Assembly (NCBI RefSeq): GCF_001182745.1
Contig: NZ_LN868938.1
Coordinates: forward strand, 744,001-808,000
Length of the DNA: 64,000 bases
Source of the DNA: Nocardia farcinica
GTDB taxonomy: Bacteria > Actinomycetota > Actinomycetes > Mycobacteriales > Mycobacteriaceae
Direction of reading: 5' to 3'
Notes under the pieces: generated by a model
Told to the model about the DNA's origin: nothing
Seen by the model: only the letters and a program-made list of their open reading frames with translations
Database searches by the model: none
Translations under genes and position numbers: made by a program
Part shown: in pieces, positions 10,489 through 12,476 of the stretch
How the letters are laid out: each line of letters begins with the position of its first letter
How positions within the stretch are numbered: the stretch's first letter is position 1

Positions 10489-10821
10489 TCATTCCGTCGG
10501 TGTTCCGATGCGCAGCCGGTTGCCGTCGATATCGCGCAGTTCGATTTCGCGCGCCCACGGCGCTTCCTCGACCGGGACACCGAATTCGGCGGCGACGGTG
10601 TCGATATCGCGGACGCGGAGGTAGATCAGGGTGTCGGGGCGGGCGTCGCCCTCGTGCTCGGACAAGAACAGCCGAACCTCGCCGCGGGCGACCTCGACGA
10701 AGGCGGGGAAACCCGGTTCGAAACGGTGCTCCCACTGTTGTGTGAAGCCCAGCCGCTCATACCAGGCAACCGCCGCGGCGGCATCGGCGACGCGGAGAAT
10801 GGGGATGACTTCCTCGTCCAT
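10489..10821 (-). CDS. VOC-family (glyoxalase/bleomycin-resistance-like) protein
   Basis: 110 aa, one pair of beta-alpha-beta-beta-beta modules. The N-terminus MDEEVIPILRVADAAAAVAWYERLGF and the C-terminal ELRDIDGNRLRIG are the two halves of a single VOC domain. Members act as glyoxalases, dioxygenases or binding proteins for drugs such as bleomycin. No gene context points to one of these. It stands alone on the minus strand. Confidence 0.85.
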   Translation of the reverse strand: MDEEVIPILRVADAAAAVAWYERLGFTQQWEHRFEPGFPAFVEVARGEVRLFLSEHEGDARPDTLIYLRVRDIDTVAAEFGVPVEEAPWAREIELRDIDGNRLRIGTPTE

Positions 10822-10974
10822 GCGGCGATCCTCGCAGACGGCCCCGACAAGTAGGCGTGTGCGGGTCGGTCATGCCCGGCCGGTGGTTGGTCGGAGGGCG
10901 GCGGGCCCGCCACCGCCAACACTCCGCCGGAGCGCGGTGGATTCCGAAAGGTGTTCCAGCCGAGCAGACTCCGC

Positions 10975-11012
10975 GCCGCCCTGGCCCCGGCCGTCACCGG
11001 GGCCAGGGCGGC
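10975..11012 (-). terminator. Perfect 16-bp hairpin behind the 24-codon micro-ORF
   Basis: Arms 10975-10990 and 10997-11012 are exact complements around a 6-base loop. It starts 18 bases after the micro-ORF stop on the minus strand. There is no T-run, as in many actinobacterial terminators. Its position supports an independent short transcript. Confidence 0.7.
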
Positions 11013-11029
11013 AGTCGGGACTCGGGCGG

Positions 11030-11104
11030 TCAGAGTGGCAGACCCGCCCCGGCGCTGAGGGTGTCGATGAGGGTGGTGATCAACGCCAACAGTTCGTCGA
11101 GCAT
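11030..11104 (-). CDS. 24-residue micro-ORF, hydrophobic helix peptide
   Basis: ATG to TGA, 24 codons, starting MLDELLALITTLIDTLS and ending in a Gly/Ala/Pro-containing tail. AAAGGA lies seven bases before the ATG, and a perfect 16-bp hairpin follows 18 bases after the stop, so it has the layout of an expressed unit. The first 17 residues would form an amphipathic, acidic helix (three acidic residues, none basic). No named family is recognised. The size and pattern recall phenol-soluble-modulin-like peptides, small membrane toxins or corynebacterial channel peptides. It faces away from a second micro-ORF at 11588. Confidence 0.5.
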   Translation of the reverse strand: MLDELLALITTLIDTLSAGAGLPL

Positions 11105-11587
11105 GGCAATTCCTTTCTCTCGGACTGTTCGTATTCACCGGTACTGCACTTGCTGAGGTACACCGTTGTGCGCGGCGTAAACCCGGCTCGCGTGGCGCGC
11201 CGTCCGGCTCCGGGGGTCCGCGGGGAAACCGACGGCGATACACGTCGGGTGCCGAGCCATGGATCGAAAACGGCGCCTCGATTCGGGCCGTTGTCGATGC
11301 GGCACTGGCCAAATCGGCCCATGTGTCCACGACACGGGGCTGCATGGATGCGCTTGGGTGGCGTCGCCGGTAAATTGCCGACCTCCGGTCGGGTTCGGCG
11401 GCGTAGCGGTCGGGCGGGGAAACCCGGATTCGGTACAGCGGCGCGAGTTCCTTGTTCGGCCTCGGTGTCGGACCCGGATGATGCATGCCGGAAGGCCGCG
11501 CAGTGCGCCCATTTCTCAGGGGGTGTTTCGGCGCCGGGGGAACGTGTAATTCGAGGATTACCGCTGACCACGGAGGAGGTGAATCCG
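11105..11587. other. Divergent spacer between the two micro-ORFs
   Basis: 483 bases without a convincing gene; open frames here have arginine-rich shadow composition. It should hold the promoters of both micro-ORFs. A TAAT-containing, locally AT-rich stretch near 11548-11560 precedes the plus-strand one. Confidence 0.4.
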
Positions 11588-11647
11588 ATGATTCTCGATT
11601 TCGTTTCTCAGCTGATCGCGGCGTTGCGTGCGATCATCGGCATCTGA
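11588..11647 (+). CDS. 19-residue micro-ORF, hydrophobic amphipathic peptide
   Basis: The peptide is MILDFVSQLIAALRAIIGI. A near-ideal GGAGGAGG lies six bases before the ATG, and a nested hairpin follows 17 bases after the stop. Hydrophobic residues repeat every three to four positions, giving an amphipathic helix with one Asp and one Arg. It resembles the other micro-ORF in having LD near the N-terminus and a Leu/Ile/Ala core. No function is assigned; the candidates are the same as for its partner. Confidence 0.55.
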   Translation: MILDFVSQLIAALRAIIGI

Positions 11648-11664
11648 CGCTCGCGAAAGATGAT

Positions 11665-11714
11665 GACGGCCCCGAAGGTCGGTGGTAAGCCCCGCCGACG
11701 TTTCCGGGGCCGTC
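11665..11714 (+). terminator. Nested hairpin behind the 19-codon micro-ORF
   Basis: Outer arms GACGGCCCCG (11665-11674) and its complement (11705-11714) enclose a second inverted repeat, GTCGG...CCGAC. It is correctly placed to end the micro-ORF transcript. Confidence 0.65.
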
Positions 11715-11732
11715 CACGTTTCCCGTGCGCTG

Positions 11733-12476
11733 TCATCGCCGAAAACCGCGCCCGACCCGCTGCGCCATCGCCGGGATCTTCGACGCCGCCATCAGGGCGC
11801 GGAAGGGCCAGCTGTCGTCGCGGGGCAGGATGCCCGCGCGCTGCACGCCGTCGAGGAAGTCGTAGAGGGTTTCGCCTTCCGCCATCAGCCCGTCCTCGGT
11901 GAAGTGGTAGCGGTCGACGGCGGGGGCTTGGATGAAGCGGCCGGTGCCGTAGAGGGTGGGCGCGGAATCGTCGTAGGGGTAGAGGCGAAGCGGGCCGGTC
12001 CAGTGGCCGCTGCCCATATAGCGGATGACTGTGCGCACCGTGCCGTCGGGTTGGACGTCGATGTAGACCTGGTCGGGTAGCGGGTCGTAGCGCCAGTCCG
12101 GGATGGCGTCGAAGAAGGCGAAGTTGTATTTCACGAACTCGTCGATGCCGACGATGGTTCGGCCGAATGTGGTGACGTCGGTGTAGCGGATATCGGGCGC
12201 GTACAACTCGTCGTTGACGCTCATGTCGCGGACCAGGAAACTCCACCAGTACTTCTTGGCCCAGGTCATCAGCCAGCTCAGGTCGGTGCCGTGCCGCTCG
12301 CCGAGATAGTCGAGCTTGGTGGCGAAGGACTCGAACCATTGCTGGGTGGTCGCCTGCAACTCGGTCTCGGGGATGGCCCGGATGGGCACCGCGCGGTTGG
12401 ATTCCAGGAACTCCGGTACCGGGCGGGACAGCCGGGGCTGTGCGAGGGCTCGCTGGAACTCTGCTTCGTCGAACAT
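11733..12476 (-). CDS. SnoaL-like / NTF2-fold protein
   Basis: 247 aa from the ATG with GAGGAG upstream. The C-terminal half (about residues 85-210) has the NTF2/SnoaL cone-fold pattern: helices, then RYTDVTTFGRTIVGIDEFVKY and strands with GTVRTVIRYMGSGHWTGPL. The fold houses polyketide cyclases, isomerases, dehydratases and ligand-binding proteins, and the sequence does not say which. The N-terminal 80 residues are extra and helical. A short palindrome and a possible TetR remnant lie upstream. There is no operon partner. Confidence 0.65.
   Translation of the reverse strand: MFDEAEFQRALAQPRLSRPVPEFLESNRAVPIRAIPETELQATTQQWFESFATKLDYLGERHGTDLSWLMTWAKKYWWSFLVRDMSVNDELYAPDIRYTDVTTFGRTIVGIDEFVKYNFAFFDAIPDWRYDPLPDQVYIDVQPDGTVRTVIRYMGSGHWTGPLRLYPYDDSAPTLYGTGRFIQAPAVDRYHFTEDGLMAEGETLYDFLDGVQRAGILPRDDSWPFRALMAASKIPAMAQRVGRGFRR

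Follow-up and report, generated by a model that had tools for sequence, protein, structure and literature searches.

Two families of stand-alone micro-genes of Nocardia with peptide products predicted to be helical and membrane-active

Genes encoding very short peptides usually fall below the calling size of annotation pipelines. Those that have been described include the phenol-soluble modulins (PSMs), which are leaderless short amphipathic helices, and the type I toxins Ibs, Fst and TisB, which are hydrophobic peptides of about 18-30 residues encoded in their own short units. Many bacterial micropeptides bind and tune a larger membrane protein. In Corynebacterium, the part of the literature available to us gives 37 residues as the size of the smallest channel former reported and a groEL2-PKK2 locus rule for PorA/PorH, and it describes the porins of Nocardia as much bigger MspA homologs (PMC5944148). 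The accessible part of a further report states that O-mycoloylated serines sit among small residues, with no strict consensus, and that protein mycoloyltransferase orthologs are present in Nocardia (PMC11066868). Here we describe two peptide genes, A and B, found in a 64-kb window (the whole stretch of DNA that was analysed) of a 6.46-Mb Nocardia genome. We take them to represent two families of stand-alone micro-genes of Nocardia that are real genes and whose products are membrane-active by prediction. Leaderless membrane micropeptides are a kind already known; the A and B families are unnamed and have no match in PDB, in Rfam at gathering or, for A, in Pfam or, above cut-off, NCBIfam.

Gene A (11030-11104, minus strand) comprises 24 codons and a TGA stop and encodes MLDELLALITTLIDTLSAGAGLPL; its ribosome binding site, GAAAGGA, lies 6 nt 5' of the ATG at 11111-11117. 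Gene B (11588-11647, plus strand) comprises 19 codons and TGA, encodes MILDFVSQLIAALRAIIGI, and is preceded 8 nt 5' of its ATG by the site GGAGGAGG (core AGGAGG, 11572-11579); a GTG three codons upstream is a possible alternative start. Both assignments rest on reading of the frames and on relatives. The start codons are separated by a 483-bp gap (11105-11587) in which both promoters are expected, and a scan of 10800-11800 returned no sigma-70 promoter and no canonical terminator. The coordinates, the codon numbers, the head-to-head order and the gap given by the initial annotation were all reproduced, as were the strong ribosome site before each gene and an LD near the N-terminus of each peptide.

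A hairpin had also been placed within about 20 bases of each stop, and both indeed begin 17 nt after it, with the stems described at these sites. The one following A (10975-11012, minus strand) is terminator-like, with perfect 16-bp arms at 10975-10990 and 10997-11012 and a 6-nt loop. The one following B (11665-11714) is nested, with 10-bp arms at 11665-11674 and 11705-11714 around an inner stem; because it sits between B and a convergent SnoaL-like gene (11733-12476, minus strand), it may end both transcripts. Neither hairpin is followed by a T-run. Folding is more stable than that of shuffled sequences on the A side (10960-11035, z = -5.6) and on the B side (11635-11720, z = -4.0), with a z of just -1.1 for the longer B-side stretch 11560-11705. 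Within 10950-11730, a single long-range inverted pair was found (12 nt at 92%).

The view that two such complete mini-units are unlikely to arise by chance was borne out under a filter fixed after the two genes had been seen (strong Shine-Dalgarno site, ATG, 15-30 residues, at least 50% hydrophobic). The 64-kb window yielded two candidates, exactly A and B, against a mean of 0.25 in 60 dinucleotide-shuffled windows; the shuffled mean fell to 0.22 when a strong hairpin was added and to 0.07 when 55% hydrophobicity was demanded as well. In a model-free scan of 1.6 Mb of the same genome, 15 raw candidates were obtained, six of them free of called genes, and the top three of these six by downstream folding are the A/B family members lying there.

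Relatives of A are numerous within the genus. A single-sequence search of 59 genomes gave weak E-values, yet the matches were short open reading frames (ORFs) behind ribosome sites. A profile of eight sequences was then searched against 150 genomes of the genus, and matches down to E = 0.0036 occurred in 30 of them, weaker matches lying outside this count. All 30 loci fetched at this level, window included, hold a matching ORF whose start coincides with that of the model or lies near it and whose stop is no more than about ten codons from the model's end; the ribosome-site filter recognized 27 of these ORFs and frame reading three (L079, L080, L086). Of the 30 loci, seven had served as rows of the profile and 23 are new. 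Since the profile is blind to stops and ribosome sites, the presence of ORFs at its matches constitutes independent support. Family members include MDAILELLTTLISSLSASAG, MEAILALLKTLLSSLSAS and MLDEILALIVVLVESLSAS, and the typical unit is an ORF of 17-29 codons preceded by a ribosome site, with a strong hairpin close behind the stop in most loci. For B, a single-sequence search (98 genomes) and a profile search (148 genomes) led to 18 loci, and three more (L234, L242, L243) bring those read to 21; all are 19 codons long counted from the assigned start, which is GTG in five of them; an alternative start a few codons upstream exists for the B of the window and at L099, L100, L102 and L106. Full-length-pattern matches were present in 13 of the 148 genomes, four such matches lying outside the 21 loci read. 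M1, L9 and G18 are invariant in 16 aligned B peptides, and position 9 is F in a further one, L242.

Profile searches at the level of the order, in 298 genomes of which some belong to the genus, gave no convincing relative of A or of B outside Nocardia. The A profile matched seven genomes, two of the genus and five with matches inside frames of 169-1162 residues that were set aside as noise; its reach at E up to 0.5 was such that two of seven listed same-genus genomes were recovered. The B profile matched 22 genomes, namely the window's own and 21 with matches inside frames of 133-1188 residues, likewise set aside. The search for relatives in Nocardia and Rhodococcus proposed by the initial annotation was thus positive within Nocardia and gave no convincing member outside it among the genomes sampled. 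That annotation had also named non-conservation of frames and starts as the outcome that would speak against the genes; frames, starts, stops and ribosome sites recur across many genomes of the genus, and this conservation supports A and B as real, complete peptide genes.

The pattern of substitutions is that of translated sequence for A and points in the same direction for B. Over 19 disjoint pairs of A, 55 changes hit the first codon position, 27 the second and 85 the third (p = 2e-6); eight pairs of B gave 20, 4 and 20 (p = 0.06, not significant alone). Pooled pN/pS was 0.58 in frame for 38 distinct A sequences, the two alternative frames giving 0.90 and 2.16, and 0.71 in frame for 18 B sequences, values indicating that residue class is constrained more than residue identity. 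A is predicted to form a mostly acidic amphipathic helix followed by a small-residue tail rich in serine, the tail consisting of serine, alanine and glycine in most members. B is predicted to form a helix of 19 residues that is highly hydrophobic apart from a narrow strip of polar residues. Among 35 distinct A, 22 had a helical moment over the first 18 residues above that of shuffled peptides (p < 0.05), amphipathicity being below significance in the other 13; the same excess was seen in all 16 distinct B. Net charge ranges from -5 to +1 in A, mostly negative, and from 0 to -2 in B. Inspection by eye revealed no evident signal sequence in either peptide.

Pfam at E up to 10 returned no family for five peptides, namely three A, a 31-residue replacement peptide described below and a 30-residue ORF behind a ribosome site at L117:1483-1575 in G175 (MDGVDLNALIAALLALIGSGSSLNYDPNAA), which is noted here as a separate observation. 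NCBIfam gave no match above cut-off for A, two of its relatives, the replacement peptide or L117, and a PDB profile search at E up to 10 gave none for A, B or the 31-residue peptide, the latter search being the only one applied to B, which at 19 residues lies below the 20-residue limit of the family scan. No literature on such peptides in Nocardia was found by a search whose reach was thin for subscription journals. A search for DNA similar to the 721-bp region gave, apart from the window, 12 matches spread over 10 of the 98 genomes (E between 5.8e-5 and 6.9e-4); they were discarded as chance, neither A nor B being present at any of them. The SnoaL-like neighbour gene was found in 28 of 99 genomes, and none of its 29 other loci, read with flanks of up to 1.5 kb, holds the peptides.

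The genome of the window carries three copies of each gene. Besides those in the window, A lies beside a metallo-hydrolase gene and between a ferritin gene and the gene of a DUF5926 protein, and B lies convergent with the argininosuccinate lyase gene (argH) and between an SDR gene and a HerA-like gene. The same genome also encodes, some 3.1 kb away from the B at argH, a 52-residue protein (L311:11505-11663) with a ribosome site and a downstream hairpin; eight database proteins match it, those that are named coming from Nocardia, and it belongs to no Pfam family. The head-to-head arrangement recurs in N. aurea (G056), where A and B are 520 bp apart and flanked by genes for an LppA-like lipoprotein and an alpha/beta hydrolase, neighbours that differ from those in the window; the two intergenic gaps have no 10-mer in common. 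Elsewhere A and B were found singly, often at fixed spots such as that downstream of DUF5926. The B peptides of the window and of N. aurea share arginine 14, as well as a C-terminal isoleucine with which none of the other 14 in the alignment ends; identity of the window B is 53% to the N. aurea B versus 63% to one unpaired B. Arginine 14 was considered as a mark of paired B and dropped, since a B of N. higoensis (L242:1501-1560, MILDFVSDFIDAIRALIGL; 76% DNA identity to the window B over 75 bp) has it with no A within its 3-kb locus. B was found in seven of 42 named genomes searched, and among the 23 of these with A at the DUF5926 spot, four have B and 19 do not, so that an obligate pair is rejected. 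A functional A-B pair, for which there are two cases, is possible, though not general.

Among named matches to the DUF5926 protein of the window's genome, in a list that may omit this genome itself and very near ones, those of Nocardia higoensis (87% identity) and N. shimofusensis (89%) score best and all 80 come from Nocardia, which is the basis for the genus assignment. The spot behind the DUF5926 gene was judged in 79 of these 80 named Nocardia genomes, one ending at a contig edge. An A-type peptide is present in 29, a different peptide of 30-31 residues in 12, and no peptide was recognized in 38, which indicates that the peptide is dispensable there. The 29 include diverged forms such as MTELIAALKAILSTMSAQ and one, L218, that is only loosely A-like. 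On a tree of the DUF5926 proteins (78 rows, the A row L162 having been dropped), these states require nine changes versus 32.6 with shuffled labels. The replacement peptide, MEFLGSVAGLAQMVIGTILANTGSGGSGSGW and close forms, occurs in one Nocardia clade and has a Ser/Gly tail with a terminal Trp (L154:3530-3625; L155-L157, L160, L163, L164, L167-L169, L176 and L191). At L164 its leader is close to the A leader, suggesting that the peptide was replaced inside one transcription unit or has diverged beyond recognition. Apparent diverged remnants of A were also seen by eye downstream of DUF5926 in N. ninae (L165) and N. suismassiliense (L171). In other genera of the family, 24 loci at this spot (one misframed) showed no A- or B-like peptide; in four of them the loose filter let through a short ORF of an unrelated kind. 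The same draw included six loci of the genus, two with A.

RNA structure accompanies many A units. A perfect inverted repeat of at least 13 bp lies within 80 nt of the stop at 17 of 22 A loci, repeats of at least 8 bp occurring in 3.7% of random stretches of the window. At 18 B loci the longest perfect arms measure 3-8 bp, as in the background (mean 5.2). Folding energy falls within the lowest 5% of the background at 8 of 22 named A loci and 6 of 18 B loci. Upstream of the peptide, two stems are common to the leaders of the A units at the DUF5926 spot (21 leaders of the 22 that the filter detected, 20 distinct). In these stems six of ten pairs change on both sides and 93.5% of cells are paired; the covariation score was reached by none of 500 shuffles and is abolished by sliding the partners. 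This two-stem covarying leader is exemplified by L183:3585-3653, with 20 further aligned leaders (A6), and Rfam has no match for it in L183 or L158. Minimum-energy folds of five A leaders disagree, some containing both stems and others enclosing or replacing the first, and some pair an arm of the first stem with the region of the ribosome site, as judged by eye. The two-stem leader of these units probably controls translation.

As to function, we favour, at about an even chance, the reading that A and B are helical peptides without a leader that act on the membrane or mycomembrane of the cell's own envelope. They would be surfactant-like or pore-forming helices that insert into the plasma membrane or the mycomembrane or lie on its surface, A being able to work alone and B adding to A in species with both. 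Several traits favour this reading: the peptides are amphipathic, apparently lack a leader, tend to be acidic and not strongly basic, follow clades in their inheritance, and have been seen in only one genus, which makes mycolic acids. A further reason is that tiny helical peptides lacking a leader belong to the mycomembrane of Corynebacterium, as far as the accessible literature describes them. The Ser/Ala/Gly tail of A and the Ser/Gly tail of the replacement peptide also resemble the setting of O-mycoloylated serines in the accessible part of PMC11066868. If they do act there, the peptides may matter for aerial growth, permeability or contact with the host, in a genus that has several copies of these genes and includes species infecting people. 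The peptides change fast yet keep their length and helix class, many of them at fixed spots, and their loci offer defined targets for small-protein work in Actinobacteria.

A role as small regulatory peptides, each binding a larger membrane protein and tuning it, seems unlikely, even though the length of B is close to one transmembrane span and single copies are scattered, for the genes have no common neighbour among the loci read (ferritin and DUF5926, metallo-hydrolase, SDR and HerA, argininosuccinate lyase, VOC and SnoaL) and the fast change, with residue class kept over identity, does not suggest one conserved partner. We also consider it rather improbable that A and B are type I toxin-like peptides that harm the membrane of their producer and are held in check by RNA structure or antisense RNA. 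Their size, hydrophobicity, patchy presence and several copies per genome would fit, as would the covarying stems near the ribosome site of the A units downstream of DUF5926. Against this, the peptides are mostly acidic, an antisense RNA was not identified at the sequence level, and the leaders of the window's own two genes show no excess structure (z = 0.45 and 0.75). For the window, Rfam gave no match at gathering. When seven loci were scanned at E up to 1, two matches appeared, both scoring far under gathering, and one of these (P35, E 0.067) covers the hairpin that follows B at L068. Clade-wise inheritance at a fixed chromosomal spot, here the few state changes on the DUF5926 tree, is moreover atypical of mobile addiction modules.

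A more specific form of envelope action, in which A and B would together build a minimal alpha-helical pore or surface layer of the mycomembrane as its two subunits, A attached through O-mycoloylated serines of its tail and B spanning the bilayer, appears distinctly improbable, and arginine 14 in the unpaired B of N. higoensis makes it less likely. If it is true, no smaller system of this kind would be known to us, and Nocardia would have a second type of porin beside MspA.

The prospect is slimmer still that the units are RNAs, structured or regulatory, in which the ORF is incidental, or leader peptides of transcription attenuation. The covarying leader stems and downstream hairpins are in keeping with it, as are a sub-cutoff NCBIfam match of A to the thr operon leader peptide (12.7 bits, cutoff 22.95; E 0.085) and a same-strand gene after the hairpin for the window A (VOC), the N. 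aurea B (L061), L064 and L100; the codon-position signal of A and the recurring start, stop and ribosome site speak against it, and attenuation is further argued against at the ferritin, metallo-hydrolase, HerA and argH spots, where the gene after the hairpin is convergent. Chance ORFs, which the very short length and the presence of only two in the window might suggest, are extremely unlikely given the shuffle averages and the conservation of both families in many genomes.

The preferred reading, action at the cell's own envelope, can be set beside the systems described above. The initial annotation had suggested PSM-like peptides, type I toxins or small channel peptides, and no sequence relation to any of these was found where comparison was possible. 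Set side by side by description, A and B, as predicted short amphipathic helices that apparently lack a leader, resemble the phenol-soluble modulins of Staphylococcus; unlike them, A has no match in Pfam, which includes PSM models, no operon or transporter was seen next to A and B, and the phylum differs. With Ibs, Fst and TisB they share a length of about 18-30 residues, hydrophobicity and a short unit of their own, and they differ in occupying fixed loci, in being mostly acidic and, as judged from sequence, in having no antisense partner identified. The porins of Corynebacterium, as portrayed in the available parts of the reports cited below, measure 37-57 residues compared with 17-29 here; PorH and PorA form one operon, whereas A and B lie head-to-head or far apart, and the groEL2-PKK2 rule does not hold for A and B, whose neighbours differ at the loci read. 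Since no sequence relation was found in PDB or, for A, in Pfam and NCBIfam, the locus rule does not apply and the peptides are shorter, we regard the likeness to PorA/PorH as analogy and not homology. As analogues, PorA, PorH, ProtX, PorACj and PorACur share with A and B a tiny size and a mycolic-acid genus as host; they are helical and amphipathic, as A and B are predicted to be, and lack a signal sequence, as A and B apparently do, and their genes often lie two side by side, as A and B lie in the window and in N. aurea (PMC3792995, PMC5944148, PMC12632848).
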